From assembly GCF_014202975.1 (NCBI RefSeq), contig NZ_JACHHZ010000001.1, forward strand, positions 124,001 through 188,000: 64,000 nucleotides of DNA, in the 5' to 3' direction. This DNA is from Povalibacter uvarum. Lineage in GTDB: Bacteria > Pseudomonadota > Gammaproteobacteria > Steroidobacterales > Steroidobacteraceae. The position numbers and the translations under genes were made by a program. Of this stretch, positions 40,457-58,714 are shown piece by piece; within the stretch, counting starts at the first letter, position 1; every line of letters starts with the position of its first letter. The notes beneath the pieces are model-generated. The model was not told the origin of the DNA. It ran no database searches and saw only the letters and a program-made list of their open reading frames with translations.

Positions 40457-40822
40457 CGGAGACTTTGTCACCGCGCGGCGCATGGAGCGTCCGCGCTGGT
40501 GAAGGATCACGAACAGTAAATCGAATCCAGCCGGACGAGCTTGTATCCCGTCGATGTGAGCAACGCCGCCGCGGGGGGCGGCTCATCCACAAGCCAGCCC
40601 CGATCCACCGCGCACACTCACGACGATTGCCGCTGATCGTGCAGCACTTCGCTGATGCAGCACGCGAAGTAAACCTGCGTAAACCCGCACTGGTATACAG
40701 CAGTGCCGACCCGGGGATGCGGCTACAATTCGCGACACATTCCCGCGCAGCAAGCAACGCTCACTTCGTGCTGCGACTGCAAGGTGCGCAGATACCTACT
40801 GACATCGATCGGGGGATCATCC
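40457..40822 (+). promoter_or_regulatory. 366-base upstream region of the ALDH operon with two inverted repeats
   Basis: No supportable gene is seen here. Two inverted repeats stand out: acttcgc (40646-40652) / gcgaagt (40664-40670) with an 11-base spacer, and gcactg (40687-40692) / cagtgc (40701-40706), whose centre contains tggtatac (40691-40698). That core recalls GntR/FadR-type sites of sugar-acid operons. Both lie 120-180 bases before the ALDH start and are candidate operators. Confidence 0.45.
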
Positions 40823-42259
40823 GTGACGGAATATCCTGATCTTCATTTGCATATCGGTGGCGCCTGGAAGAAGACGGCGTCTTCGCAGCCTGTACTGAAT
40901 CCTTCGTCGGAAGCTGTCATCGGCCATGTGCCGGTCGCAACGCGGCAGGATCTGGACGACGCTCTCGAGGCGGCAGAGCACGGATTCAAAGTATGGGCGC
41001 AGTTCTCTCCGAGAAGGCGCGGCGAGATCATGCTCAAAGCCGCTGCGCTGATGCGCGAGCGTTCCGACGAGATAGCTCGCGCCATAACGCTCGAACACGG
41101 CAAGCCGTTCAAGGCCGCGCGGCTGGAAGTGATCCGGGGTTGCGAATTCTTCGAATGGGATGCGGCCGAAGGACAGCGACTCTATGGACGCGTCATCCCG
41201 AGCGAACCGGGGATCAAGTACATCGTGCATCACCAGCCGATCGGCATGGTGGCCGCGTTCTCGCCCTGGAACTTCCCTCTGAGTCAGCCCGCGCGAAAGA
41301 TTGCCGGCGCACTCGCGGCAGGTTGTTCGATCATCATGAAGGCGTCGGAGGAGACGCCCGCTGGCGCGATGCACATTGCTCGCGCACTTCACGATGCCGG
41401 TTTGCCGCCCGGGGTGATGAATCTCGTCTTCGGAGTTCCTTCGGAGATCTCCGAGTATCTGATCCCGCAGGCGCCGATCCGGCTCGTTGCGTTCACGGGG
41501 TCGACCGTTGTCGGAAAGCGGCTGACCCGGATTGCCTCGGAGTACATGAAGCCTGTGCTCATGGAGCTTGGCGGGCATGCGCCGGTCATCGTGTGCGATG
41601 ACGTCGACCCAGTCGAGGCTGCGGTGGTGTCGGCTGTGCGAAAGGCGCGCAACGCAGGGCAGGTGTGCACCTCACCGACGCGGTTCTTCGTTCAGGAGCG
41701 CATCTACGAAGCGTTCGTCAAAGCCTTCGCCGAGAGAGCTCGTGCGGTGGTCGTTGGAGACGGCTTCGAATCGTCGACCGAGATGGGACCGCTCGCCAAT
41801 GATCGACGCATCAAGGCGATGGAAACACTGATTGCCGATGCCGACGGGCAAGGCGCGCGTGTTCTGACCGGTGGCAAGCGTCTCAATCGACCTGGATACT
41901 TTTTCCCGGTGACTGTTCTGGCCGACGTACCGGATTGCGCACGCGTGATGCGTGAAGAGCCGTTCGGGCCGCTTGCGGTGATCAACCCCGTGTCGTCCAT
42001 CGACGAAGCAATCCAGAAAGCGAACTCGCTGCCGTTCGGCCTCGCTGCCTACGCGTTTACGCACTCGGCTCAAAGAGCCAATGAGCTGGCTGAGCGTATC
42101 GAGGCGGGCAACTTCTCCATCAATACGCTCGAGGCCTCCGTGGCCGAGACCCCGTTTGGAGGCGTGAAGGAGAGCGGCTACGGAAGAGAGGGTGGGACGG
42201 AGGGGTTGTTCAACTACACTGTGGTGAAGAATATTTCGCACAGCATGACGATCGTCTAG
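40823..42259 (+). CDS. NAD(P)-dependent aldehyde dehydrogenase (semialdehyde type)
   Basis: 478 aa. Catalytic Cys282 is in KARNAGQVCTSP, general base Glu249 in MELGGHAPV, and the fold motif is FSPWNFPLSQPARKIAGALAAG. It belongs to the succinate/alpha-ketoglutarate semialdehyde dehydrogenase group. The frame is open to 40703, but the family N-terminus fits GTG 40823. It leads a three-gene operon with a DapA-like lyase and an aspartate-dehydrogenase-like protein. It could also supply the alpha-ketoglutarate-semialdehyde step missing from the hydroxyproline cluster at 53762; that is inference. Confidence 0.85.
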   Translation: MTEYPDLHLHIGGAWKKTASSQPVLNPSSEAVIGHVPVATRQDLDDALEAAEHGFKVWAQFSPRRRGEIMLKAAALMRERSDEIARAITLEHGKPFKAARLEVIRGCEFFEWDAAEGQRLYGRVIPSEPGIKYIVHHQPIGMVAAFSPWNFPLSQPARKIAGALAAGCSIIMKASEETPAGAMHIARALHDAGLPPGVMNLVFGVPSEISEYLIPQAPIRLVAFTGSTVVGKRLTRIASEYMKPVLMELGGHAPVIVCDDVDPVEAAVVSAVRKARNAGQVCTSPTRFFVQERIYEAFVKAFAERARAVVVGDGFESSTEMGPLANDRRIKAMETLIADADGQGARVLTGGKRLNRPGYFFPVTVLADVPDCARVMREEPFGPLAVINPVSSIDEAIQKANSLPFGLAAYAFTHSAQRANELAERIEAGNFSINTLEASVAETPFGGVKESGYGREGGTEGLFNYTVVKNISHSMTIV

Positions 42260-42275
42260 GGAAGAAGCCGGCTTC

Positions 42276-42293
42276 GTCATTCCCGCGAAAGCA
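42276..42293 (+). repeat. Half-REP element in the ALDH/DapA-like intergenic gap
   Basis: gtcattcccgcgaaagc is the left arm of the same repeat seen as full pairs at 45536 and 58579. It ends 3 bases before ATG 42297, exactly where a ribosome site would be expected. Confidence 0.7.
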
Positions 42294-42296
42294 GCC

Positions 42297-43256
42297 ATGA
42301 GCAAATACGCACGAAAAGACGCAAAGGCCTACGCGCGAGCTCACCTGAAGGGCATCTGGGCTGCCGCGCTCACGCCTTTCACCGCGACCCTCGACCTGGA
42401 CGAAGACGGCTTCCGCGAAAACATCCGCCACTGGACACAAGGCCTCGGCATCGATGGGCTCTTCATCGCGGGCAAGCAGGGAGAGTTCTTCTCCATGTCG
42501 CTCAAGGAGCGCAAGCGCACTTTCGAGCTGGCGGTCGAGGCCACACCGGGCGGGCATCACACGATCCTGTCGTGCTCGGATCAGAATCTGGATACGGTCA
42601 TTGACCTCGCCCGACATGCGCAGGCGATCGGGGCTGATTTCATCGTCGTCCACGCGCCGATCCTGCATTTCCACAAAGCACAGGATGAAACGGTTCTTGC
42701 TTACTACAACGCCATCGCGAAGGCCGTCGACATCGGGATCGCGCTGTGGAGCCATCCGGACAGCGGCTACCTGCTTTCGCCGCAACTCTGCAATCGCCTC
42801 GCCGACATCGAGAACGTGGTTGCAATCAAGTACAGCGTGCCGCGCCCCATGTACACCGAGCTGACGCGACTTGCGGGCGATCGGCTCATCGTCAGCACCG
42901 CTTCGGAAGAAGAGTGGCTGGACAACATCGTCGAGCTGAACTGGCAGGTTTACCTGTGCTCGTCGCCGCCGTATCTGACGCAGACACTCGTGGATCGCAG
43001 GATGAAGGAGTACACCGAGCTGGCTTTCAGCGGCAAGGTTCAACAGGCCCGCCTCGTTCGTGACAGCCTGAATCCGGTACGTGAGGCCTTGCGTTCCACG
43101 CGCCCGGCGGAGAAGCCTCACTCGCACCAGAAATACTGGCAGGAGCTTCTCGGCCAGGTGGGCGGAAGAGTCAGGGCGCCGCTGCTGGAACTGACTGACG
43201 CTGAGAAGCGCGCGACGCGAGCCGCATTCGAAGCGTGCGGACTGAAGCTGACTTGA
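42297..43256 (+). CDS. Dihydrodipicolinate synthase-family lyase with atypical active site
   Basis: 319 aa TIM-barrel. The Schiff-base lysine is in VVAIKYSV. The usual GTTGE loop reads GKQGEFF, and the segment that normally holds the catalytic tyrosine (PYYNRP-like) reads HAPILHFHKAQD, so the standard Tyr is absent. A different substrate from dihydrodipicolinate is therefore likely, probably a 2-oxo acid. No Shine-Dalgarno is visible; a half-REP occupies that position. The stop overlaps the next start (TGATG at 43254-43258). Confidence 0.85.
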   Translation: MSKYARKDAKAYARAHLKGIWAAALTPFTATLDLDEDGFRENIRHWTQGLGIDGLFIAGKQGEFFSMSLKERKRTFELAVEATPGGHHTILSCSDQNLDTVIDLARHAQAIGADFIVVHAPILHFHKAQDETVLAYYNAIAKAVDIGIALWSHPDSGYLLSPQLCNRLADIENVVAIKYSVPRPMYTELTRLAGDRLIVSTASEEEWLDNIVELNWQVYLCSSPPYLTQTLVDRRMKEYTELAFSGKVQQARLVRDSLNPVREALRSTRPAEKPHSHQKYWQELLGQVGGRVRAPLLELTDAEKRATRAAFEACGLKLT

Positions 43257-44071
43257 TGGCCATGCGCAGGAAATCCCTTCGGATCGCCTTGATTGGCTGG
43301 GGTGCCATCAGCCGGCGTGTAGCGGAGCTGTTGTCGCTGCGTTCGGCGGGTTCGGTCTCCATCGTGGCGATCGCCAAACGCGATGCGGCTGCGGCTACGT
43401 CGCTGCCTGCGAACGCGGCCGTCGTGACTACGACGGAAGAGCTCGCGGGACTCGATCTCGATATGGTCGTGGAAGCCGCCAGCCGTGAAGCTGTCGCCCT
43501 TTGGGGTGAGGCTGCGCTGCGGAGTTCGAGAGCGTTCGTAGTCGCTTCAACGAGCGCGTTCTGCGACACGAGTCTGCTCGATGGATTGGTCCGATCGGCA
43601 GAGGAGCACGGCAGCCAGCTCATCATTCCGCCGGGAGCGCTCGCGGGGGTCGATGCGCTCGTCGCGGCATCTGCGCTGCCGCTCGAAAGCGTGATTCACC
43701 GCATCGTCAAGCCACCCGCTGCGTGGCGCGGCACAGCTGCGGAATCCCTGATCGCGCTCGATGGTCTGACGCGGGCCGCTACGTTCTACTCAGGCACCGC
43801 CAGAGAAGCGGCAGCGCAGTTTCCCAAGAATGCGAATGTCACCGTGATCTCGGCGCTCGCGGGAGTCGGGCTCGACAGAACAACCGTTGAGCTTGTCGCG
43901 GACCCGGACGTCCAGGACAACATTCATGTGCTCAAAGCAGTCGGTGCGTTCGGCAAGCTCGAGATCCGCATCGAGAACAAGCCGCTGGCCGCCAATCCGA
44001 AGTCTTCGGAGATGGCGGCTCTAAGCCTCGTCAGAATCGTCGAGAATCACGCAAGAGCGCTGGTACGCTGA
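43256..44071 (+). CDS. Aspartate-dehydrogenase-like NAD(P) oxidoreductase
   Basis: 271 aa. An N-terminal Rossmann fold (IALIGWGAISRRVAELL) and the AspDH C-terminal domain (IIPPGALAGVDALVAAS, FPKNANVTVISALAGVGLD) match NadX-type L-aspartate dehydrogenases. These oxidise L-aspartate to iminoaspartate/oxaloacetate with NAD(P). Here it is in an operon with an aldehyde dehydrogenase and a DapA-like lyase rather than with NAD-synthesis genes, so it likely acts on an amino acid in a degradation pathway. It ends 8 bases before the convergent ALDH gene. Confidence 0.83.
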   Translation: MAMRRKSLRIALIGWGAISRRVAELLSLRSAGSVSIVAIAKRDAAAATSLPANAAVVTTTEELAGLDLDMVVEAASREAVALWGEAALRSSRAFVVASTSAFCDTSLLDGLVRSAEEHGSQLIIPPGALAGVDALVAASALPLESVIHRIVKPPAAWRGTAAESLIALDGLTRAATFYSGTAREAAAQFPKNANVTVISALAGVGLDRTTVELVADPDVQDNIHVLKAVGAFGKLEIRIENKPLAANPKSSEMAALSLVRIVENHARALVR

Positions 44072-44079
44072 CTCGAGGC

Positions 44080-45516
44080 TCAAGTCACGTACTTGATGAG
44101 CATCTCGCTCAGGCGGCGCTTCCGCTCGTTGTAGGGAGGGAAGAGCATTTCGAGCGCTGACAGCGGCCCGGCGGACATCACTGCGCGTTCGTGAGAGAAC
44201 GCCTTGAAGCCGAAGAAGCCGTGGGCATTGCCGATGCCCGAGTTGTTCACGCCGCCGAACGGCAGATTGTGCTGGGCGAATTGCTGCAGGCACAGGTTGA
44301 CGCACAGGCTGCCGGAGCTCGTGTTCGTCCTGAGCGCTTCGACGGTGCGATCGTTCTTCGTCCACGCGTAGAGCGCCAGAGGCTTCGTTCCCGCGTTGAT
44401 CTCCGCGATCACTGCGTCGAGCGAATCGAATGTCAGGATCGGCAGTACCGGTCCAAAGATTTCTTCTCCACGAATCGACGCACTCGGCGGCACATCGCGC
44501 AGCAGCGTTGGCGCCACGTAGCGCGAATCGACATCGTAGGTGCCGCCGTACGCAACCTTGCCGCCCGACTTCACTGCGTCGTCGATGAGCCGGCCGACGC
44601 GCTCAGCGTGTCGACGGTGGATCATCCGGGGAAAGTCCGCACTGCTCTTGATCGCTGCATCAGTGGCGCCGTAACGCCCTGCGATCGTGCTGCGGCAAAG
44701 TTCGACGAAGCGGTCCGCGACATCGCGATGTACGTACACATAGTCGGGGGCGATGCAGGTCTGGCCGGCATTCACCAGCTTGCCCCACATGACGTGTTCG
44801 GCAGCGTTATGAAGGTTCGCAGTGGCGTCGATGACGACTGGCGACTTGCCTCCCAGTTCGAGGGTTACCGAAGCGAGATGCGTCGCGGCTGCGGCCATGA
44901 CCTTCTTGCCGACGCCCGGGGAGCCGGTGAAGAAGATGTGATCAAACGGGAGCGAGAGGAGGGCGGTGGCCGTTTCAGCCGCGCCTTCCACGACGGCGAC
45001 CTCGTCGACGGCGAATACCGCGCTGACGATGTCCTGCACGACGCGATTCGTGTGCGGCGTGAACTCCGACGGTTTGAGAATCGCCGTATTGCCCGCGGCT
45101 ACCGCCGAGACCAGCGGTCCCAGGGCCAGGCTCAGCGGATAGTTCCAGGGGCTGATGATCAGGCATCGGCCCTTCGGCTGATACACCACGCGGGAAGTCG
45201 TGCCGAGCGCCGCCATCGTCGGGCGAATGCGGTGCGGCTTCATCCAGCGTTTCAGATTCGAGATGGAGTGCTTCAGTTCGCCGACGAGAGGCAGCACTTC
45301 CGTCAGATTTGTTTCAGTCGGATGCTTGCCCAGGTCTCGCTGCGTCGCCTCAGCAATCGCGTCCTTACGCGCGAGAATGGCGTCGAGCAGCTTCGTGAGC
45401 TTGAGGCGTCGCTCCGCCGCGGTGGATTGCCTCAGTCTCAATGCCGTTGCGGCGTGAGACTCGAACAGCCTGTCGACGGACACGGAGGTGAGGTCGCGGT
45501 CGGGCATGGCACTCAT
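44080..45516 (-). CDS. Aldehyde dehydrogenase, ALDH3/coniferyl-aldehyde type
   Basis: 478 aa. The catalytic Cys is in GKLVNAGQTCIAPDYVYV and the general base Glu in VTLELGGKSPVV. The short ALDH3 architecture and PPYNERKRRL near the C-terminus fit fatty/aryl aldehyde dehydrogenases. ATG 45516 is chosen because GGAG lies 7 bases upstream, while the earlier ATG at 45540 lies inside a REPIN. It follows the TonB receptor on the same strand and may oxidise an aldehyde made by the upstream redox genes; the REPIN and a hairpin between them could uncouple it. Confidence 0.87.
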   Translation of the reverse strand: MSAMPDRDLTSVSVDRLFESHAATALRLRQSTAAERRLKLTKLLDAILARKDAIAEATQRDLGKHPTETNLTEVLPLVGELKHSISNLKRWMKPHRIRPTMAALGTTSRVVYQPKGRCLIISPWNYPLSLALGPLVSAVAAGNTAILKPSEFTPHTNRVVQDIVSAVFAVDEVAVVEGAAETATALLSLPFDHIFFTGSPGVGKKVMAAAATHLASVTLELGGKSPVVIDATANLHNAAEHVMWGKLVNAGQTCIAPDYVYVHRDVADRFVELCRSTIAGRYGATDAAIKSSADFPRMIHRRHAERVGRLIDDAVKSGGKVAYGGTYDVDSRYVAPTLLRDVPPSASIRGEEIFGPVLPILTFDSLDAVIAEINAGTKPLALYAWTKNDRTVEALRTNTSSGSLCVNLCLQQFAQHNLPFGGVNNSGIGNAHGFFGFKAFSHERAVMSAGPLSALEMLFPPYNERKRRLSEMLIKYVT

Positions 45517-45535
45517 GGGCGGGCTCCGGGAGTCA

Positions 45536-45601
45536 GTCATTCCCGCGCAAGCGGGAATCCATCTGGATCAAGGCATGGACTCCCGCGTGCGCGGGAGTGA
45601 C
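45536..45601. repeat. REPIN: two inverted REP units
   Basis: gtcattcccgcgcaagcgggaatcca is followed after a short spacer by tggactcccgcgtgcgcgggagtgac, the same unit in inverted orientation. The 66-bp element matches the one at 58579 in layout and termini (GTCA...TGAC). No RAYT transposase is in the window, so it would be mobilised in trans. Confidence 0.8.
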
Positions 45602-45607
45602 AAGATC

Positions 45608-45637
45608 GGGCGCGCCTGCGCAATCGCAGGCGCGCCC
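45608..45637 (-). terminator. 13-bp stem hairpin after the TonB-receptor gene
   Basis: gggcgcgcctgcg / cgcaggcgcgccc with the loop caat forms a perfect 13-bp stem 8 bases after the receptor stop. The following bases on the minus strand (atcttg) give only a weak U-tract. It probably ends or attenuates the cytochrome/TonB-receptor transcript before the ALDH gene. Confidence 0.65.
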
Positions 45638-45645
45638 AGGTTACA

Positions 45646-48066
45646 TCAGAACGAGAATGTCGCTTCCAGCCCCCACATGCGGGGCTCGGAGATCGACGCG
45701 AACGGCGTCCCGAACGTGTCACGCGTGATGTTGTTGATGCCCGTCACGTACTGATCGTCGAGCACGTTGGTCACGTAGCCCGCGAGGCCGAACGTGTTGT
45801 TCGCGCTGGTCCAGCCGAGCCGCATGTCGAGACGCTGCGTATCTTCGCCGACCTGGAAGGAAGTCTGCAGCGAGCAGTCTCCCTGGCGCTCGGAGTCGGC
45901 ATTGCAACGCGATTCGCCGCGATAGGCGTAACGGCCCGACAGCTGCAGATCGCCAGCATTGCCCAGCAGCCACTCGTAGCTCGCGCCCAGCGAAGCGCTG
46001 AGATGCGGCTCACCCGTCGGCTGGCCGGAAAGGTCGATCGGATCGTCGCCCAGCGTCGTCTTTTCCTTGTACGTCGAGTCGATATACGCGACGTTCGCGT
46101 ACAGCGTGAAGTGGTCGAGCGGCCGCCATTGCGCGTCGACATCGATGCCCCACGCTTCCTCGTCGCTCGTGTCGATCACATACCGCGGAATTTCGCCGGA
46201 GGAACCGTCGTCCAGCGTGATCGCCTGCTTGTTGTCGTAGATGTAGTAGTAGACGGAGGCATTCAGCACCACACCCGCATCCGGGATCACGCTCTTGATG
46301 CCCGTTTCGAGGTTCCAGACGTCCTCGTTCTCGAACTGCGATGCGACCTCGACGCTGTTGTAGCCGCCGGCCTTGTAACCCTTGGCGAGCGAGCCGAACA
46401 CCATGACGTTCGGGTTGATCTTGTAGTCGAGCACGAAACGCGGGCTGACGTCGTCCCAGGAGTCCTTGTCCGTGTAGCCGCCCGGCGGCGTGTCCGTAGT
46501 GAAGATGATGTCTGAGAAGCGGTAGGCCTCCGCCGGGATTGGCCACATCGTGAAGAAGCCAGCCTGCTCGAGTCCTGCGATGGCTTCATCGAGCTCCGGC
46601 GTCTCATGCGGACCATTGGTCCACGTGAACTTCTTGGTGTCGCGAGTGAAGCGCAAGCCGAACGTCAGGTTGGTCTTGTCGTTGAGGTGCCAGATCACGT
46701 CGCCGAATGCGGCGTACGCTTCGAAGTCGCCGTTGTTGTACATCGCTTCGCGCCACGGCATGCCGAGCAGAGAGACCGGGATCCCCAGATCCGCGAGGAA
46801 GGCGGTGGTGCCGCCGTACAGCGGGAAGGGGATACCCAGACCGTCCCAGATGCCCAGGTTCGTTCCGAGCGTGTCGATGCCATCCGTGTACGTGTGCGTA
46901 TCGCTGATCTGGTCGGCCTTCTCCTGGTAATAGCTCACGCCCGCGACCCAGTCGATCCGGTCGGTCCTGCCGGAGAACTTGAACTCCTGGTAGAAGCTCT
47001 CGTTGCTCTCGATGTTCGCCGTGTCGAAGTACACCCCGATCAGGTTCGTGCCGTCTTCGTCTTCACGGTTGACGGTATCGAACTGACGCCACGACGTGCT
47101 GGAGCGGAAGTCCGCCGAGCCGAACGTGTGATCGATGAACAGGTTCACCTGGTCGAGCTTGCGCGACTCCTCGTTGCCGACGACGTCGTTGTAGACCGGT
47201 GCGTTGCGAGGGTCGATGTATGTCGCAGGGTCCGCAGGGTAGGGGATCGTCGTCTGACCCGCGGCTACAGGGATGATGCCGATCGCCGGGCGCGCGAGCT
47301 GATCGAGATCGTCATGATCCCAGGAGAGGGTCGCGCTCGTGTTGTCGGAAAGCGCCCAGCGCAGCGCGACGCGACCGGCCCAGTTCTCCTCAGGCAGGAG
47401 GTCCTGGCCGGTGGCCGCATCCTGGATCCAGCCGTCGCTCTTGTTGTAGACGCCGTTGATGCGCAGCGCGAGGCTGTCGCCGATCGGTGTGTTCAACATG
47501 CCTTCGTAGTACTGCTTGCCGTACTGACCGACGCGCACGCGCAGCAACGAGTGGAACTCGTCTTCAGGCTGGCGAGTGACGATCGAGATTGCGCCGGCGG
47601 CGCTGTTGCGGCCGAACAAGGTGCCTTGCGGCCCTTTCAGAACTTCGATCCGCTCGATGTCGTTGAAGGCGAGCAGCGAAGCGCCGGAGCGTGCTGCATA
47701 GATGCCATCGACGTACACGCCCACCGCGGGATCGGTGCCGATGCCGAAGTCGTCGGTCGCAATGCCGCGGATCTCATAGCGCGGTTGCGTGGGGCTACCA
47801 TCAGAGATCACCAGCCCGGGCACGAACCCGTTCAGGTCGCCAAGGTTTTCCGCTGCGACGTCGTCGATCAGCTTGCTGTCCACGACCTGCATCGCGATCG
47901 GGACATCCTGCAGCGATTGGGTACGCCGCTGCGCTGTCACCAGGATCTCCTCGATCTCGTTGCTGGTCTCCTGCGCCACTACGACGCCGGGCGTCGTGGC
48001 CGCGAAGCCCGCGCCCGTCAGCACCGTCATCACCGCGTACGCGAGCCTGTTCCTGCGATTATTCAT
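45646..48066 (-). CDS. TonB-dependent outer-membrane receptor
   Basis: 806 aa. A signal peptide (about residues 1-32) and TonB box EEILVTAQRR are followed by a plug domain (LNGFVPGLVISDG, RYEIRGIATDDFGIGTDPAV, RIEVLKGPQGTLFGRNSAAG). The large barrel ends GLEATFSF. It begins 23 bases after the beta-helix/cytochrome gene, so the imported ligand is probably linked to the periplasmic redox proteins of the operon. The barrel loops (for example YYIYDNKQAITLDDG) give no ligand clue. Confidence 0.92.
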   Translation of the reverse strand: MNNRRNRLAYAVMTVLTGAGFAATTPGVVVAQETSNEIEEILVTAQRRTQSLQDVPIAMQVVDSKLIDDVAAENLGDLNGFVPGLVISDGSPTQPRYEIRGIATDDFGIGTDPAVGVYVDGIYAARSGASLLAFNDIERIEVLKGPQGTLFGRNSAAGAISIVTRQPEDEFHSLLRVRVGQYGKQYYEGMLNTPIGDSLALRINGVYNKSDGWIQDAATGQDLLPEENWAGRVALRWALSDNTSATLSWDHDDLDQLARPAIGIIPVAAGQTTIPYPADPATYIDPRNAPVYNDVVGNEESRKLDQVNLFIDHTFGSADFRSSTSWRQFDTVNREDEDGTNLIGVYFDTANIESNESFYQEFKFSGRTDRIDWVAGVSYYQEKADQISDTHTYTDGIDTLGTNLGIWDGLGIPFPLYGGTTAFLADLGIPVSLLGMPWREAMYNNGDFEAYAAFGDVIWHLNDKTNLTFGLRFTRDTKKFTWTNGPHETPELDEAIAGLEQAGFFTMWPIPAEAYRFSDIIFTTDTPPGGYTDKDSWDDVSPRFVLDYKINPNVMVFGSLAKGYKAGGYNSVEVASQFENEDVWNLETGIKSVIPDAGVVLNASVYYYIYDNKQAITLDDGSSGEIPRYVIDTSDEEAWGIDVDAQWRPLDHFTLYANVAYIDSTYKEKTTLGDDPIDLSGQPTGEPHLSASLGASYEWLLGNAGDLQLSGRYAYRGESRCNADSERQGDCSLQTSFQVGEDTQRLDMRLGWTSANNTFGLAGYVTNVLDDQYVTGINNITRDTFGTPFASISEPRMWGLEATFSF

Positions 48067-48089
48067 GAGTCTTCGTCTCCGTCGTCAGG

Positions 48090-49613
48090 TCAATTGGTCA
48101 CTTGCAGCATGTATTGCGCCACCGCGAGACGGGTCTCGGGGTCGAGATAGTCCTGCGGCGGCATTTCGGGATAGTCATCGCGCTTCTTGGTCGGCTTCGC
48201 GATGAAGTCGGCGAGGCCCTGGGGGTTGTCCATGTAGAGCGCCTGGATCACCTGCACCGGCGGGCCGATCATGCGGCCGTTGTACGTGTGACAGCCGGTG
48301 CAGATGCCGAGGTAGACGACCTTGCCGCGTTCGCCGGGCTTGATTTCGCGCGGCGGTACGGGCGGCAGCAGGTAGTTCACCGTGGCGGCGGTATTGGTGA
48401 AGTCGCACTCGGCGAAGTCGTCGACGCCCGCAGTGATGTACTGATGGCGATTGACGATGCAGCTGCCCGGGCTCGGGCCAACGCGCACGATGTCGAGATT
48501 CTTGCGACCCACTTTGCCATCCGCGAGCAGCAGCGCCTTCGCTTCCGGAATCGTGTCGTAGCCGTTCCTCAGCATCACGTTGTCGAGGATCTTCACGCGA
48601 TCCGAGTTCGGATCCGATTCGGGATCGGCAGTGATGTTCGAGGCGTTGGCGTGATCCGTGATGATCATGCCGGCCACCTTGTTGTCGGAGATGATGTTGC
48701 TTTCGACGACGACGTCATCAGCCGCCATGATCAGGATGCCCGTGCCGGCCGGAATGCCGGACACAGTGGAGCCGGGAGCACCAAAGTTCGGGTGATTGTT
48801 TCCGACGACGAAGTTGTTGCGGAAGATCACATCGACGGTGTCCTTGATCGGCAGCCCCGGCGTCACGAACGCGAGCAGGCCGCCCGAGTTGTTGTGCACG
48901 TAGTTGTTCTCGACGATCGCATGGCGGCTGTTCTCGATCTCGATGCCGGCGACGCTGTCGAACACGTCGTTGTGCGCAACCAGGATGTTGTCGCTCATGC
49001 CGATGTAAATCGCGGCATCGGCAATGCCGGAGACCACGTTGTGCTCGACGATGCCGTTCTGGCCGAGCTGCGGGAAGATGCCGTACACGCCGGACTCCGC
49101 GATCACGTTGTTGCGGATCTCGAAGTTGTTGCCGGCCTGGCCCATGATCCCGTTGCCCTTGTAGTTGCGGATCTCGAGGTTCTCGGCGACGAAGTTGTTG
49201 CCGGAATAGAGAATCGCGTCGTTGAGCTTCTTCTGCCCATCGAGCACGGGTCGGCGACCTTCTTCGATGACACCGATGATGCGAATGTCGTCTTTGTCGA
49301 TGTACACCGTCTCGTGATACGTGCCGGGCATCACGCGCACGATGGTTCCTTTCGGAGCCGCTTTGATCGCTGCCTGGATCGATTCACCGTCCTTGACGAC
49401 GACGATGTTCGTCGGCGCCGGTCCGGCCACCGAGCGGATGACGCCCTCAGGCTTGGTGGCGGCATCCGCCTTGAAGCCGCCGCTGTAGCTGGCGCCGCTT
49501 GTCGACGAACTGATCGTCAGGTCCTGTTTGCCGCTGCGGCCGAAGTACGTACCAGCGCCGAAGGCCACTGCGGCCACCAGCACTCCCAGGATGAGCCCCT
49601 TCTTCATCTTCAT
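48090..49613 (-). CDS. Periplasmic parallel beta-helix protein fused to cytochrome c
   Basis: 507 aa. An N-terminal signal/anchor (residues 5-24) is followed by a right-handed parallel beta-helix over about residues 65-400. Its many Asn-rich turns (NNFVAENLEIRNYKGNGI, NIISDNKVAGMIITDH) give the CASH/NosD-like pattern. The last 75 residues are a cytochrome c domain with CTGCH (438-442) and a likely axial Met484 (YPEMPPQDY). Beta-helix proteins of this type are known in two-gene pairs with cytochrome-like partners of unknown role; here the cytochrome is fused. Its start overlaps the peroxidase stop (ATGA). Confidence 0.85.
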   Translation of the reverse strand: MKMKKGLILGVLVAAVAFGAGTYFGRSGKQDLTISSSTSGASYSGGFKADAATKPEGVIRSVAGPAPTNIVVVKDGESIQAAIKAAPKGTIVRVMPGTYHETVYIDKDDIRIIGVIEEGRRPVLDGQKKLNDAILYSGNNFVAENLEIRNYKGNGIMGQAGNNFEIRNNVIAESGVYGIFPQLGQNGIVEHNVVSGIADAAIYIGMSDNILVAHNDVFDSVAGIEIENSRHAIVENNYVHNNSGGLLAFVTPGLPIKDTVDVIFRNNFVVGNNHPNFGAPGSTVSGIPAGTGILIMAADDVVVESNIISDNKVAGMIITDHANASNITADPESDPNSDRVKILDNVMLRNGYDTIPEAKALLLADGKVGRKNLDIVRVGPSPGSCIVNRHQYITAGVDDFAECDFTNTAATVNYLLPPVPPREIKPGERGKVVYLGICTGCHTYNGRMIGPPVQVIQALYMDNPQGLADFIAKPTKKRDDYPEMPPQDYLDPETRLAVAQYMLQVTN

Positions 49614-50764
49614 TCTCCTCGCTTGGTTGGCGGCAGGCCGGAAGGAACTCGTGCCGGCGTTTGCGGCAGGAAAGTTTCATCCGTCAATGCGCCCAGAAAG
49701 TCCACGATGCGATCGACCTCGGCTTCCGTCAGCTTCGGATCCGAGATGTGCCAATGCAGATAGAGCGTCATGCCCTTGGGCACGGCGTTGCCGCGCCCCT
49801 TGTTGTAGAAGTCGACGGCGCCGCGCAGGTCGGCGAATGCACCGGAATGGGAGTAAGGCGCGGTGCGCGCGATGTTGCGCAGGGTCGGCACCTTGAATCC
49901 GCCCTTGAGTTTCGGGCTGTTCAGGATGGCCTCGGCACCGACATCGAACGGCTGGCCGGCAGGCTCGGGCATGCCGATCACCGCAATCTGTTCATTGGTG
50001 AACAGCGGAGGTGTGTGGCACTCGGAGCAACGCGCGACGAACGAGCGGAATACGTTCAGGCCTTCGATCTCGCGCTGGGAGAGTGCGGCGTCGTATCCGT
50101 GAACGTAGCGGTCGTATCGACTGTTGAGCGAGACGAGCGAAGTCTGGAAAGCGGTGAGCGCCGTGAAAACCTGTTGCTCGGCGATCGGGCCGCGCTGCTG
50201 GGGGAACGCTTCCTTGAACAGCCGACGATACGTCGCGTTGTCGTTCAGGCTCTTGAGCAATTGATCCGGCGTGTTGCCCATCTCCTTGGGCGAGTAGAGC
50301 GGGCCGGATGCCTGCGCTTCCAGCGAGTCCGCGCGTGCATCCCAGAAGAAGCGCTTCAGGAAGGCCACATTCCACAACGTTGGCGCTGCGCGACCCGCGT
50401 CCTCGCCATGAATGCCAATCGATCGCGGGCGTCCGTCGGACAGGCCGCGCGCAGGATCGTGGCAGCTCGCGCAGGAGAGCGTGCGATCGCCGGACATCAC
50501 CGGATCGAAGAAGAGATAGCGGCCGAGGTCGATCTGATTCGGCGTGAAGCCGTCGCGATGCGGCGGTAGGGAGGTGCGCGTGCCGCCGAGGCCGCGATTC
50601 TCGAGCGAGTCGTAGAACTGGTAAAGGGTGCGAAGCTCGCACACGCCGCCCGTCTTTTCGAATCCCGGCGGGCAATTCGTGTTGAGCGTGAAGTCGGTCG
50701 GTGCCGGCCCGGTTGCGCCAGCGGTCCCCATGGCCGCGATGACCAACGCGAGCGCGCGAATCAT
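49610..50764 (-). CDS. Diheme cytochrome c peroxidase/MauG-family protein
   Basis: 384 aa. A signal peptide precedes two c-type haem sites: CASCH (98-102) and CSECH (246-250). The CCP/MauG landmarks RYLFFDPVMSGDRTLSCASC, GRAAPTLWNVAFLKRFFWDAR and VPTLRNIARTAPYSHSG are present. Family members reduce H2O2 or, like MauG, perform long-range oxidation of protein or small-molecule targets. ATGA overlaps with both neighbours show tight translational coupling. The partner beta-helix protein is the obvious candidate electron donor or target. Confidence 0.88.
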   Translation of the reverse strand: MIRALALVIAAMGTAGATGPAPTDFTLNTNCPPGFEKTGGVCELRTLYQFYDSLENRGLGGTRTSLPPHRDGFTPNQIDLGRYLFFDPVMSGDRTLSCASCHDPARGLSDGRPRSIGIHGEDAGRAAPTLWNVAFLKRFFWDARADSLEAQASGPLYSPKEMGNTPDQLLKSLNDNATYRRLFKEAFPQQRGPIAEQQVFTALTAFQTSLVSLNSRYDRYVHGYDAALSQREIEGLNVFRSFVARCSECHTPPLFTNEQIAVIGMPEPAGQPFDVGAEAILNSPKLKGGFKVPTLRNIARTAPYSHSGAFADLRGAVDFYNKGRGNAVPKGMTLYLHWHISDPKLTEAEVDRIVDFLGALTDETFLPQTPARVPSGLPPTKRGE

Positions 50765-51441
50765 TTCGGCCGGCCCTGTTGGTGAATGAACGCGATGATG
50801 TCGTCGATATCGCGTTCCGCCGGCAGCGTCTTCGCCATCATCGCCATCTGACGGCCGGGCGTATCCTGTGGATCGGTGCCGCGCACGCCATCGCGGAAGT
50901 GCGCGAACTGCAGCTTGAGATAGGTCGCATCGAGGCCCGCGAGTCGCGGCGACTTCAGCGCCTGGTTGCCCTCGGCGACTCCGCCGTGACAGGCACCGCA
51001 CTTGCCGTTGTACAGGTTCTTGCCGTTGTGAAGATTGCCCGTGGCGGGCTTGGCAATGACGTTCTTCGGAAGACTGGCGACGTAGCTCGCGACCTTTGCG
51101 ACCGCTGTATCGTCGGGAAGGACCGTCGCGGCAGCCTGCATCTGCGCGCCAAAGACATCGGACTTGTGCGTGCCGCGCCGGCGATTGCGGAAGTTCAGCA
51201 ACTGGCGCTCGACGTAAGCTGCATCCTGGCCGGCGATCGCCGGTGCATTCAGCGCCGCGTTTCCTTCGCCTTTGCTGCCATGACAGGCGATGCAGGATGC
51301 GAACAGTTTGTCGCCCTCGGCAGCGAGCGAAGCTGCGCTGCACATAAACAACACAGCGCCCAGCCACGATGCGCGCACGATGCGCTCCAAGCGACGATCC
51401 GCTGCCGTGCGCTCGCGCGATGAGTCCGCCATTGCGGACAT
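50761..51441 (-). CDS. Diheme cytochrome c4-type protein
   Basis: 226 aa from ATG 51441. A signal peptide (about residues 22-41) is followed by two cytochrome c modules: CIACH (50-54) with GEGNAALNAPAIAGQDAAYV, and CGACH (148-152) with AEGNQALKSPRLAGLDATYL. This is the c4 pattern of a periplasmic two-haem electron carrier. It probably passes electrons between the membrane chain and the MauG-like protein encoded next. The start is uncertain: in-frame ATGs at 51549, 51474 and 51432 exist and none has a clear Shine-Dalgarno. It is the first gene of the minus-strand operon. Confidence 0.85.
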   Translation of the reverse strand: MSAMADSSRERTAADRRLERIVRASWLGAVLFMCSAASLAAEGDKLFASCIACHGSKGEGNAALNAPAIAGQDAAYVERQLLNFRNRRRGTHKSDVFGAQMQAAATVLPDDTAVAKVASYVASLPKNVIAKPATGNLHNGKNLYNGKCGACHGGVAEGNQALKSPRLAGLDATYLKLQFAHFRDGVRGTDPQDTPGRQMAMMAKTLPAERDIDDIIAFIHQQGRPK

Positions 51442-52898: not shown

Positions 52899-53645
52899 CT
52901 AGTCCCGCCCCGCCAGCTTGCGAAACTGCAGCGGCGGCAAACCCACGGTCTGCCGGAACTGCCGTGCGAAGGAGCTTTGATCGGCATAGCCGACTTCGAG
53001 CGCGATGGTTGCGATGGGCAAGTCGGTTTCCACGAGCCGATCGCGTGCGGCACTCAGCCGCGTCTTGAGCAGCCACTCACCCGTCGAGATTCCGAACACG
53101 CGCTTCATCCGGCGATCCAGTTGATACGGCGACATGTCGGCGGTTGCCGCCATGCTCGCCACTGTGGCTGATGCGGAGAGATTTTCCTGCGCCACCTCGA
53201 TCGCTGATGCGATGCGCTGAAAGTCCTCGGAGCTGACGTCCGGCATCTTCAGATCCTGGGACACGCCGACGAGACCGATGATGGCGTTGCGCTTGTCGTA
53301 CAGCGGCAGCTTCGTCGTGAGACACCAGCCTACGTGCCGGGTGTCGTACATGTGCAGCTCCAGAAGGTTCACGAGCGAGCGTCCTCGAACCAGGACCGTG
53401 CGGTCCTGCTTTTCATAGTGATCACCGAGGTCGGTGCCGAACAGTTCAAGCGGTGTACGGCCGATGACATCGCTCTTGCTGGTACAGCCGCAACGCTGCA
53501 CGAGGGTCTCGTTGACTTCCAGGTAGCGACCGCCAGCGTCCTTGATGAAATAGACGATGTCCGGCAGGTGGTCGAACAGCGCAGCCGCCGTGAAAGGATC
53601 GCGCAGATGGCTGAGAAACGAGGCGATTTTGGGGGCGGCGTCCAC
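52899..53645 (-). CDS. PAS-domain AraC-family regulator of the hydroxyproline cluster
   Basis: 248 aa from GTG 53645. An N-terminal PAS domain (LPDIVYFIKDAGGRYLEVNE, VIGRTPLELFG, LLELHMYDTRHVGWCLTTKL) is followed by a C-terminal AraC double helix-turn-helix (VASMAATADMSPYQLDRRMK, IATIALEVGYADQSSFARQF). Longer frames upstream overlap the divergent gene, so the GTG is preferred. The only -10-like box (cataat at 53657-53652) is 6 bases before the GTG, which would make the mRNA leaderless. It is divergent from the LhpC-like gene and probably senses a pathway metabolite. Confidence 0.85.
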   Translation of the reverse strand: MDAAPKIASFLSHLRDPFTAAALFDHLPDIVYFIKDAGGRYLEVNETLVQRCGCTSKSDVIGRTPLELFGTDLGDHYEKQDRTVLVRGRSLVNLLELHMYDTRHVGWCLTTKLPLYDKRNAIIGLVGVSQDLKMPDVSSEDFQRIASAIEVAQENLSASATVASMAATADMSPYQLDRRMKRVFGISTGEWLLKTRLSAARDRLVETDLPIATIALEVGYADQSSFARQFRQTVGLPPLQFRKLAGRD

Positions 53646-53761
53646 GGCAAAATTATGCCAAAACTTCAGTGGCGGGTTCACCGATTGGCAAGACGGGGCC
53701 GGCGGGTTACTCCTATTATCGCGGCCTGACGTCTCCCCACACCTACTCCTCTCCCGCGCCC

Positions 53762-54709
53762 ATGCAGCAATCCACACCGTTGTTCTCCGGATGCATTCCG
53801 GCCCTGATGACCCCGGTCACTGCTTCGGGTGAGCCCGACTATGACGCGCTTGCCGCCAAGGGGAGGGAGCTGGTCGATCTTGGAATGCGCGCAGTCGTCT
53901 ACTGCGGCTCGATGGGTGACTGGCCGCTGCTCACCGACGAACAGCGCAAACTCGGCGTCGAAGCACTCGTGGCGAAGGGTGTGCCGGTCATCGTTGGGAC
54001 GGGAGCGCAGAGCACCGCGCGTGCCGCATCATTCGCAGCGCATGCGCGCAAGTGCGGTGCGCAGGGGCTCATGGTCATTCCTCGTCTGCTGTCTCGGGGA
54101 ATTTCGCCGGATGCTCAGCGTGGGCATTTCGCACGCGTGTTGACGGCGGCGGAGGGATTGCCGGCAGTCATTTACAACAGTCCTTATTACGGCTTCGAGA
54201 CGCGCCGCGAGCTGTTCTTCGATCTGCGTCGCGAGCACTCGAACCTCGTGGGTTTCAAGGAGTTCGGCGGCGGTGCTTCGCTGACCTACGCCGCGGAGCA
54301 CATTACCAGCGGTGATCCAACGCTGACGCTGATGGTGGGCGTCGACACGCAGGTCGTGCACGGCTACGTGCGGTGCGGAGCCAAGGGTGCGATCACTGGT
54401 GTCGGCAATGCGCTGCCGCTGCAGGTCCTGCGGCTGATCGAACTCTGCGTCGAAGCGGCGAAGGGGAGTGTGCAGGCATACCGGCACGCGGCGGAGCTCG
54501 ATCAGGCGCTGAGCGTGCTGTCGAAATTCGATGAAGGAACGGACCTGGTGCTCTATTACAAGCATCTGATGGTGCTTGCGGGCAATCCCGAGTACACCCG
54601 GCACATCAACGCCGAGGATCGATTGAGTCCCACGCAGAAGGCGTTTGTAGAGGATGCCTGGAATCGCTTCCAGACCTGGTGGAAGGAATGGCCGGCACGC
54701 AAGGCGTGA
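53762..54709 (+). CDS. Pyrroline-4-hydroxy-2-carboxylate deaminase-like protein (DapA family)
   Basis: 315 aa TIM-barrel. The active-site loop is YCGSMGDWPLLTDEQR, the Tyr motif VIYNSPYYGF, and the Schiff-base lysine lies in NLVGFKEFGG, features shared with LhpC/HypD proteins of hydroxyproline catabolism. These remove ammonia from delta1-pyrroline-4-hydroxy-2-carboxylate to give alpha-ketoglutarate semialdehyde. The neighbours (epimerase, FAD dehydrogenase) support this. ATG 53762 is chosen over the upstream open frame because it gives the family N-terminus. The next gene starts 9 bases after the stop. Confidence 0.88.
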   Translation: MQQSTPLFSGCIPALMTPVTASGEPDYDALAAKGRELVDLGMRAVVYCGSMGDWPLLTDEQRKLGVEALVAKGVPVIVGTGAQSTARAASFAAHARKCGAQGLMVIPRLLSRGISPDAQRGHFARVLTAAEGLPAVIYNSPYYGFETRRELFFDLRREHSNLVGFKEFGGGASLTYAAEHITSGDPTLTLMVGVDTQVVHGYVRCGAKGAITGVGNALPLQVLRLIELCVEAAKGSVQAYRHAAELDQALSVLSKFDEGTDLVLYYKHLMVLAGNPEYTRHINAEDRLSPTQKAFVEDAWNRFQTWWKEWPARKA

Positions 54710-54718
54710 GGATGCACG

Positions 54719-55654
54719 ATGCGCTTCATTGACTCGCACACCGAGGGTGAACCGACCCGAGTGGTGATCTCGGGTGGCCCCGACCTTGGCGGCGGTAGCC
54801 TCAGGCAGCAACTGGACCGCTTCGCGCGTGACTTCGACGATGTCCGCAGGGCATTGATCCTCGAGCCGAGAGGGTCAGAGGCGTTGGTCGGCGCGTTGCT
54901 GTGTCCGCCCACGGATCCGAGCTGCGACGCCGGCGTCATCTTCTTCAACAATGCTGGCTTTCTCGGCATGTGCGGACACGGCTCCATCGGCGTCGCTGTG
55001 ACGCTGGCGTATCTCGATCGGGTGAAAGGCTCGCAGCTCAAACTCGAAACGCCAGTAGGCGTCGTGTCACTCGAGATGCTCGGACCGAACGAAGCATCGC
55101 TGCAGAATGTCCCGAGCTACGTACACCAGGCGGGAGTCACGATTGCGATCGACGGCTATCCGCCACTGCGGGGCGACATCGGCTGGGGTGGGAACTGGTT
55201 CTTCCTCGTGGACTGGACGCACACGCCGATACGGCCGGAGCTCATTCCGAAGCTGACGCAGGTTTGCCTGCAGATTCGGCGGGCGCTGGAGGAGCGGGGC
55301 ATTACCGGAGCGAACGGCGGAGTGATCGATCACATCGAGCTATTCTGCGCCGCCGATGACAGCGGCGCGGACAGTCGTAACTTCGTGCTCTGCCCGGGTG
55401 GCGAATACGATCGTTCGCCGTGCGGCACCGGAACCAGCGCCAAGCTCGCTTGCCTGGCGGCGCACGCAGAACTGAAGCCCGGCGAGATCTGGACCCAGGA
55501 GAGCGTCATCGGTGGGCGTTTCCAGGCGAGCTATCAATTGAATGCAGAAGGGCGTGTCGTGCCCACCATTCGCGGGCGTGCGTACATCTGTTCCGAAGGC
55601 ACGATCGTGCGGCAGCCCAACGATCCGTTCATCAACGGTATCCCTTCCAAGTGA
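54719..55654 (+). CDS. 4-hydroxyproline 2-epimerase (proline racemase family)
   Basis: 311 aa. Both catalytic cysteines are present: Cys85 in GFLGMCGHGS and Cys235 in DRSPCGTGTSAK. Two cysteines indicate racemase/epimerase activity; the related dehydratases carry Thr at the second site. The N-terminus MRFIDSHTEGEPTRVV is family-typical. It converts trans-4-hydroxy-L-proline to the cis-D form for the downstream dehydrogenase. The stop overlaps the next start by GTGA. Confidence 0.9.
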   Translation: MRFIDSHTEGEPTRVVISGGPDLGGGSLRQQLDRFARDFDDVRRALILEPRGSEALVGALLCPPTDPSCDAGVIFFNNAGFLGMCGHGSIGVAVTLAYLDRVKGSQLKLETPVGVVSLEMLGPNEASLQNVPSYVHQAGVTIAIDGYPPLRGDIGWGGNWFFLVDWTHTPIRPELIPKLTQVCLQIRRALEERGITGANGGVIDHIELFCAADDSGADSRNFVLCPGGEYDRSPCGTGTSAKLACLAAHAELKPGEIWTQESVIGGRFQASYQLNAEGRVVPTIRGRAYICSEGTIVRQPNDPFINGIPSK

Positions 55655-56907
55655 GCTCCTCGCCGAATCAAGTGCTGGTGATCGGGGCCGGCGTCGTCGG
55701 CATTGCGTGTGCTCACTATCTGCATCGCGCCGGTTTGAAGGTCGCGCTGATCGACCAGGCAGAGCCGGGGCAGGCCTGCTCGTTCGGCAACTGCGGACTG
55801 ATCTGTCCGAGTCATATCCTGCCGCTGACGATGCCCGGCGCCGTGGGGAAGGGGCTGCGCTCGCTGTTCGATCAGCAAGCGACTTTCCGCATCAAGCCTC
55901 AGGCGCGACTGGCGCTGTATCGCTGGTTGTATCAGTTCGCTCGACGCTGCACCGCTGAACAGGCGAGACAGTCCACGCTGAATCTGCAGCGCATTCTCGA
56001 TGCTTCGATGGCTGAGTATCGTGGGCTCCTCTCGTATCCACGGATCGCTGCAACCTGGCGCGAAGGCGGCACGCTTTGCGTATTCCGTTCGGAGCACGCG
56101 CTGCAGGAGTACGAAGCTTCCGAGGTGGTGCTGCAGCGTGAGCTGGGCGTCGGAGCCGAGCTGCTGGACGCAGCTGCAATCAACAAGCTGACTCCAGGCA
56201 TATCGCCGCACGTACGCGGTGGAGTGCTCTTTCGCGGTGACGCCTTCGTTCAACCAGATCAGTTGACGAGCAGCTGGCTCGCGCAATTGAAGGCTGACGG
56301 CGTGACGGTGCTGGAGAACACGGCCCTGCAGGGCATTTCCGTCGCCGGCCCTCGCATCAAGTCAGTCGCAACCTCCAAAGGCGACCTGACGGCGGATCAA
56401 TATGTGTTCGCACTCGGCTCGTGGAGCCCGCAACTCAAGCAGTGGCTGGGCGTGAACATCCCGATCGAGCCTGGCAAGGGTTACTCTGTTCTGGTCGATC
56501 GCCCCGTCAACACGCCATCGTTGCCCGTGCTTTTCCCTGAGCGCAACATCGTGGCGACACCGTTCGCTCAAAGCGTGCGCCTCGGGTCGATCATGGAATT
56601 CGCGGGCTATGACGGCTCGATTCCAGAATGGCGCGTGAACCAGTTGATCGGCGCGGCAGCGGACTACATCGAAATGCCCGTTGACCGGTCGCCGCGCCAG
56701 CGCTGGACGGGGTGGCGTCCGATGACGTGGGACAGCTTGCCGATCATCGGCAGGCCGCGACAGCTGGGTAATGCATTGATCGCAGCCGGCCACAACATGC
56801 TGGGCATGACGCTTGCGCCGGCGACCGGGCGCTTGATCGCCGATCTTGCGATGGAACGTGCGCCGTTCATCGATTCGCATGCGTATTCGCCCGATCGTTT
56901 CGGATGA
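55651..56907 (+). CDS. FAD-dependent D-hydroxyproline dehydrogenase-like oxidoreductase
   Basis: 418 aa from GTG 55651 (overlapping the epimerase stop). The FAD-binding motif VIGAGVVGIACAHYL is followed by CSFGNCGLICPSHILPL. The C-terminus has GWRPMTWDSLPIIGRP and AAGHNMLGMTLAPATGRLIA, as in DadA/D-amino-acid dehydrogenase and LhpB/HypO-type enzymes. It would oxidise cis-4-hydroxy-D-proline to the pyrroline consumed by the gene at 53762. No membrane helix is seen. The frame continues upstream within the epimerase gene but is not used. Confidence 0.89.
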   Translation: MSSSPNQVLVIGAGVVGIACAHYLHRAGLKVALIDQAEPGQACSFGNCGLICPSHILPLTMPGAVGKGLRSLFDQQATFRIKPQARLALYRWLYQFARRCTAEQARQSTLNLQRILDASMAEYRGLLSYPRIAATWREGGTLCVFRSEHALQEYEASEVVLQRELGVGAELLDAAAINKLTPGISPHVRGGVLFRGDAFVQPDQLTSSWLAQLKADGVTVLENTALQGISVAGPRIKSVATSKGDLTADQYVFALGSWSPQLKQWLGVNIPIEPGKGYSVLVDRPVNTPSLPVLFPERNIVATPFAQSVRLGSIMEFAGYDGSIPEWRVNQLIGAAADYIEMPVDRSPRQRWTGWRPMTWDSLPIIGRPRQLGNALIAAGHNMLGMTLAPATGRLIADLAMERAPFIDSHAYSPDRFG

Positions 56908-58578: not shown

Positions 58579-58643
58579 GTCATTCCTGCGCACGCGGAAT
58601 CCATGCCTTTCGCAAGATGGATTCCCGCTTTCGCGGGGATGAC
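58579..58643. repeat. REPIN directly after the cupin gene
   Basis: gtcattcctgcgcacgcggaatcc and its inverted partner atggattcccgctttcgcggggatgac form a 65-bp pair with GTCA...TGAC ends, like the element at 45536. The left unit has lost one base of the stem. Confidence 0.8.
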
Positions 58644-58689
58644 GGAGCCGCTCGAATGACGGAGCCGCTCGAATGACGGAGCCGCGGGA
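58639..58689 (+). repeat. Three tandem 17-bp copies derived from the REPIN edge
   Basis: atgacggagccgctcga occurs twice exactly (58639-58655, 58656-58672) and once with two changes (58673-58689), followed by a further atgacgg. It grows out of the right end of the REPIN and looks like slippage. Confidence 0.85.
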
Positions 58690-58714
58690 ATGACGGCAGC
58701 GCGGGGCGGGCCGG

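Follow-up and report, generated by a model that had tools for sequence, protein, structure and literature searches.

We found that the genes for a cytochrome c4-like protein, a MauG-type dihaem enzyme and a beta-helix/cytochrome c fusion protein form the conserved core of a gene module, and that a dedicated family of TonB-dependent outer-membrane receptors belongs with this trio. The module was studied in a 64,000-nucleotide stretch of DNA (the window; contig positions 124001–188000 of a 6.3 Mb genome), and coordinates given here without another locus name are window positions. What we observed directly is the conservation of the genes, the linkage of the receptor, the domain content and a haem-site signature. 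Our tentative reading, held with somewhat less than even confidence, is that the module may be an import-linked periplasmic haem oxidation unit that acts on an imported ligand.

The five genes of the original prediction, which had been made from the letters alone, follow one another on the minus strand as described, and their families were confirmed by Pfam and NCBIfam. These genes encode a cytochrome c4-like dihaem electron carrier (50761–51441; Pfam Cytochrom_C and CBB3), the MauG/MbnH-type dihaem enzyme (49610–50764; CCP_MauG, 1e-51), the beta-helix/cytochrome c fusion (48090–49613; TIGR03805, 3.5e-51, and Cytochrom_C), the receptor (45646–48066; plug and barrel domains) and an accessory, ALDH3-like aldehyde dehydrogenase (ALDH; 44080–45540; Aldedh, 1e-91) that probably starts at 45516. 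An ATGA overlap occurs at both the c4/MauG-like and the MauG-like/beta-helix junctions, and the five predicted c-type haem sites are all present as CxxCH motifs: CIACH and CGACH in c4, CASCH and CSECH in the MauG-like protein and CTGCH in the beta-helix protein. The gap between the beta-helix and receptor genes is 23 nt, and that between the receptor and ALDH genes measures 105 nt (129 nt with a conserved downstream ATG, MSAMPD, as the start). This last junction contains two strong inverted repeats: a REP-like repeat with 27-nt arms (45536–45601) and a perfect 13-nt repeat directly past the receptor stop codon (45608–45637), which is terminator-like without a T run. The ALDH gene of the window is therefore less tightly coupled than the other four. 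REP-like palindromes (TTCCCGCG...CGCGGGAAT) occur at 42276, 45536 and 58621–58690, a recurrence within the window well above chance.

To examine conservation, we compared 81 loci, the window and 80 others that matched the beta-helix protein in the GTDB species set, and called neighbour genes by profiles on both sides of the beta-helix gene. Steroidobacter and Peristeroidobacter proved to be the nearest relatives at the module locus. The MauG-like gene is directly upstream of the beta-helix gene in 79 of the 80 loci with enough sequence, the sole one without it being a Microbulbifer locus (L070), and the c4 gene lies upstream of the MauG-like gene in 69 of 75 loci (window counted). Gammaproteobacterial carriers of the trio belong to the Steroidobacteraceae, Halieaceae, Colwelliaceae, Alteromonadaceae, Cellvibrionaceae and Woeseiaceae, and three further loci are from Bacteroidota (L077, L079 and L081); both marine and soil bacteria are represented among the families. 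Gene order is thus kept from Steroidobacteraceae to Bacteroidota, and the homologues of the trio are not scattered. Distances between beta-helix proteins correlate with those between MauG-like proteins (rho 0.57, reached by none of 1,000 permutations), with a contribution from the species’ shared ancestry. In an even draw of 370 genomes of the class, three in addition to the window’s own encoded the beta-helix protein, which makes for a rare and patchy distribution of the module.

In 43 of the 81 loci the trio has a receptor of a single family nearby: downstream and co-directional in 9, upstream and divergent in 14 and upstream and co-directional in 22, with both upstream forms in 2 loci. Because these arrangements differ, the linkage is not mere inherited synteny. 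About half of the loci have no adjoining receptor of the trio-linked family, and a Steroidobacter locus (L004) has the trio with neither receptor nor ALDH. As receptors are numerous in these bacteria, we tested how specific the linkage is. When eight genomes with 19–100 matches each were searched with the window receptor, the trio-adjacent receptor was the best match in five and ranked second or third in the remaining three. In the reciprocal test, a profile built from 18 trio-linked receptors of other families gave the window receptor the top rank within its genome (408+243 bits, in two parts), ahead of the next at 240+87. Receptor distances also correlate with beta-helix distances (rho 0.43, 0 of 1,000 permutations), shared ancestry again contributing. 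Three unlinked receptors (L092, L097 and L103) fall among the linked ones in a receptor tree that sampled few unlinked receptors; the linkage is thus strong, not exclusive. A SusC-like receptor gene begins 43 nt downstream of the beta-helix gene in the Bacteroidota locus L077. With linked receptors at 43 loci and at or near the top of searches in both directions, the place of the receptor in the unit is upheld.

An AraC-type regulator with an apparently membrane-bound N terminus is encoded directly upstream in many relatives, and mostly lies between receptor and trio at the 22 loci with an upstream co-directional receptor. Its position beside the trio suggests that the module may be induced. 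Upstream of c4 in the window is a gene for a regulator with PAS_4 and AraC-type HTH domains (52899–53777, minus strand), which differs from the AraC-type regulator beside the trio in other families and did not turn up around the trio at other Steroidobacter loci.

The MauG-like protein scored highest among NCBIfam models against MbnH (TIGR04039; 217.9 bits, below the cut-off of 362.85), and also fell short of the cut-off for MauG (TIGR03791; 190.1 bits against 443.85). Its AlphaFold model (pLDDT 86) matches the folds of MacA, 6e1c and MauG. In our numbering, which is the full-protein number minus one, Y319 aligns with Tyr294 of MauG (3l4m; C-terminal part aligned) and is Tyr in 76 of 76 sequences; the Met that serves as axial ligand of the electron-transfer haem in peroxidases is absent from all 76, with Tyr at the equivalent position. 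The inter-haem Trp W140 and the acidic residue E160 are invariant in the 75 sequences that cover them. Also invariant among the MauG-like proteins are an HWHI motif (336–339) and a pair of N-terminal cysteines specific to the family. This residue pattern predicts a His/Tyr haem of the MauG and BthA kind, and both of those enzymes depend on the Tyr for their bis-Fe(IV) signature (PMC6405878). No methylamine dehydrogenase genes were found in the gene lists of the 81 loci or in Pfam scans of selected recurrent neighbours. In the c4 protein, M97 and M195, one in each half, are kept in 97% or more of 68 sequences, and the best solved-structure matches include cytochrome c4 and dihaem c-552. With a CxxCH motif and a Met in both of its domains, it belongs with cytochrome c4; a periplasmic signal and Met ligation are presumed.

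The beta-helix protein comprises an N-terminal membrane helix, a right-handed parallel beta-helix (AlphaFold model pLDDT 89) and a C-terminal monohaem cytochrome c with an invariant Met484. A NosD-like, copper-binding character was considered and dropped: the protein reaches 55 bits against NosD (TIGR04247; cut-off 300) and is instead a member of TIGR03805 (174.1 bits; cut-off 141.5). Sixty-three aligned relatives share 55–92% identity with it over nearly the full length. Trp is absent from the window protein and from 21 of 81 homologues, and Tyr residues are invariant on conserved rungs of the helix. The rungs DAxIYxG, AGIEIENS and PGLP are common to the module proteins and to canonical TIGR03805 proteins, so the rung face is probably functional in both groups.

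The nearest solved relatives of the window ALDH are ALDH3-type enzymes, fatty-aldehyde and steroid-aldehyde dehydrogenases. An ALDH gene follows the downstream receptor in four other Steroidobacter-group loci, at distances read from the sequence of 5 nt (L003, Peristeroidobacter agariperforans), 17 nt (L006), about 62 nt (L005) and about 68 nt (L011). We had considered the ALDH to be a separate unit, given its 105-nt gap and hairpins, and abandoned this in view of the 5- and 17-nt gaps in sister loci. Its proposed membership of the unit therefore stands in part: it follows the receptor in sister loci, but it is accessory, is confined to Steroidobacter and a few other lineages and lies here behind hairpins that could end transcription. 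Co-transcription with the receptor is possible.

Catabolic genes adjoin the trio elsewhere. A Colwellia locus (L042) has an ALDH of the window’s type behind the trio, Woeseiaceae loci have a different, unassigned ALDH there, and in the Halieaceae locus L029 genes for a short-chain dehydrogenase (SDR), an acyl-CoA dehydrogenase, a CoA-transferase and a MaoC-like protein start 16 nt downstream. The repetition of catabolic enzymes behind the trio is suggestive; the genes vary by lineage and are missing in many. At Woeseiaceae loci (L072, 11548–13134; L073, 6486–8177; and the related L071, L074, L076 and L078), a PRK12834-type FAD-binding dehydrogenase gene is divergent from the trio, and together with the ALDH behind the trio it may be a clue to the substrate. 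In the window itself, a tight plus-strand set of ALDH, DapA-like and aspartate-dehydrogenase-like genes (40703–44071) converges on the module and ends just short of the stop codon of the module ALDH. Adjoining the module on the other side are probable hydroxyproline catabolism genes (53669–56907, plus strand), encoding a DapA-like protein, a 4-hydroxyproline epimerase (421.7 bits; cut-off 450) and a D-amino-acid-oxidase-type dehydrogenase, and several Colwelliaceae trio loci have a proline-racemase-family gene 4–9 kb away. We rejected a link to hydroxyproline catabolism as probably coincidental; the genes are not kept in other Steroidobacter loci.

We hypothesize that the TonB receptor carries an organic ligand across the outer membrane into the periplasm, where the MauG-type enzyme and the membrane-anchored beta-helix/cytochrome c protein would function as an obligate pair. 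We infer a direction of electron flow, a ligand, a product and a division of labour as follows. Most likely, the ligand would bind to the face of the beta-helix, its oxidation would be carried out or relayed by the dihaem enzyme (using H2O2 or O2) together with the fused haem, and cytochrome c4 would connect these two proteins with the respiratory chain; in Steroidobacter-like bacteria, the cytoplasmic ALDH3-type enzyme could process an aldehyde product further. We count in favour of this import-coupled oxidation the order of the trio, the correlated beta-helix and MauG-like distances, the receptor linkage, the AraC-type gene, the invariant Tyr and Trp residues and the catabolic neighbours. 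Against it we count the variation of those neighbours among lineages, the roughly half of the loci with no adjoining receptor of the family, the Steroidobacter locus with the trio alone and the hairpins; the precedents also weigh against it, as MauG and MbnH modify proteins, not small molecules.

Those precedents supply another explanation, in which the MauG-type enzyme oxidizes residues of the beta-helix into a protein-derived cofactor, much as MauG matures methylamine dehydrogenase, and the matured protein acts as a dehydrogenase that passes electrons through its own haem to c4. MbnH and MauG, the closest curated families, both have their target protein encoded by an adjacent gene, the MauG-like and beta-helix genes hardly ever occur apart, frequently overlap and co-vary, and a fused haem with c4 would fit a dehydrogenase. 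The absence of Trp from the window beta-helix and from about a quarter of its homologues nevertheless excludes Trp chemistry of the known type on this partner, so that the modified residue would have to be another. The invariant Tyr residues on conserved rungs are candidates, but TIGR03805 relatives that are paired with a dihaem cytochrome rather than with a MauG-like enzyme likewise retain Tyr203 and the EIEN rung. We consider maturation rather unlikely.

The CCP fold and the adjoining c-type electron donors would also suit peroxide defence, the dihaem protein being a cytochrome c peroxidase that takes electrons from c4 and the beta-helix haem, and the receptor and ALDH being incidental to it. 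This is quite improbable, since all 76 sequences carry a His/Tyr and not a His/Met haem signature, and since no role would be left for the beta-helix, for all its strong conservation, or for the linked receptor that recurs beside the trio. Nor do we favour polymer processing, with the beta-helix as a carbohydrate-active enzyme or binder and the haem enzymes oxidizing polymer fragments. Alginate epimerase, PL6 lyases and inulin fructotransferases are the top Foldseek matches of the beta-helix, and the P. agariperforans locus has a pectate lyase gene further downstream. However, the TM-scores among the matches listed (0.19–0.56) are low, as is typical of any right-handed beta-helix, and beyond the fold a PDB search returned generic polysaccharide enzymes and was uninformative. 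By sequence, the beta-helix part matches no solved enzyme other than a pectinesterase, weakly (E 0.046), and no CAZyme is recurrently linked, which makes this account about as improbable as peroxide defence.

To our knowledge, few partners of MauG-type dihaem enzymes are known, all of them Trp-modifying. An enzyme of this type that is near-inseparable from a Trp-free beta-helix cytochrome, and often encoded close to a dedicated importer, points towards new chemistry or a new substrate, and the module would offer a first functional handle on the TIGR03805 family. As it occurs in the culturable genera Colwellia, Thalassotalea and Steroidobacter, the module is testable. Consistent with the original claim, the literature searched, which mostly excludes subscription journals, contains no described pathway with the full set, and no functional description of the module, of SO2930/SO2931 or of TIGR03805; its novelty is provisional. 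It is possible, though we would not put it at an even chance, that the module represents a new import-coupled pathway of Gammaproteobacteria and Bacteroidota, with a bis-Fe(IV)-type enzyme, a dedicated TonB receptor and a beta-helix/cytochrome c protein that serves as a substrate-binding relay or is modified at a non-Trp residue.

Among known systems, RoxA (rubber) and FadCcp (oleate) are periplasmic or secreted dihaem CCP relatives that oxidize organic substrates (PMC4496055); they are a functional precedent only, and are not among the sequence matches or listed fold matches of the module enzyme. BthA from Burkholderia has the His/Tyr six-coordinate haem predicted for the module enzyme, which in BthA gives the bis-Fe(IV) state (PMC6405878), but has Ser at the inter-haem position where the module enzyme keeps Trp. 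MauG, of tryptophan tryptophylquinone biosynthesis, has the same dihaem fold, a Tyr at the same predicted ligand position (Tyr294) and the inter-haem Trp, whereas the module enzyme has the extra N-terminal Cys pair and HWHI motif and its loci lack methylamine dehydrogenase genes. The MbnH family gives the top NCBIfam score, and 6e1c, a MauG-like protein of copper homeostasis, the second-best fold match. MbnH is partnered by a copper-binding protein in which a Trp is modified, in contrast to the Trp-free beta-helix cytochrome of the module. In three relatives of the window genome (L083, L084 and L085), a canonical TIGR03805 gene lies beside a gene for an SO2930-type dihaem cytochrome, a sister system. 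SO2930-family dihaem cytochromes are absent from the module locus, and elsewhere in the window’s genome there are only matches below the cut-off. This uncharacterized TIGR03805/TIGR03806 pair, a beta-helix protein and an SO2930-family dihaem cytochrome c, is the closest catalogued relative of the module: its beta-helix is homologous (27–29% identity between the module protein and three canonical TIGR03805 proteins aligned), has the same rungs and is likewise encoded beside c-type haem proteins. The module differs in fusing a monohaem cytochrome to the beta-helix in place of an SO2930-type protein at the locus, and in adding the MauG-like, c4 and receptor genes.
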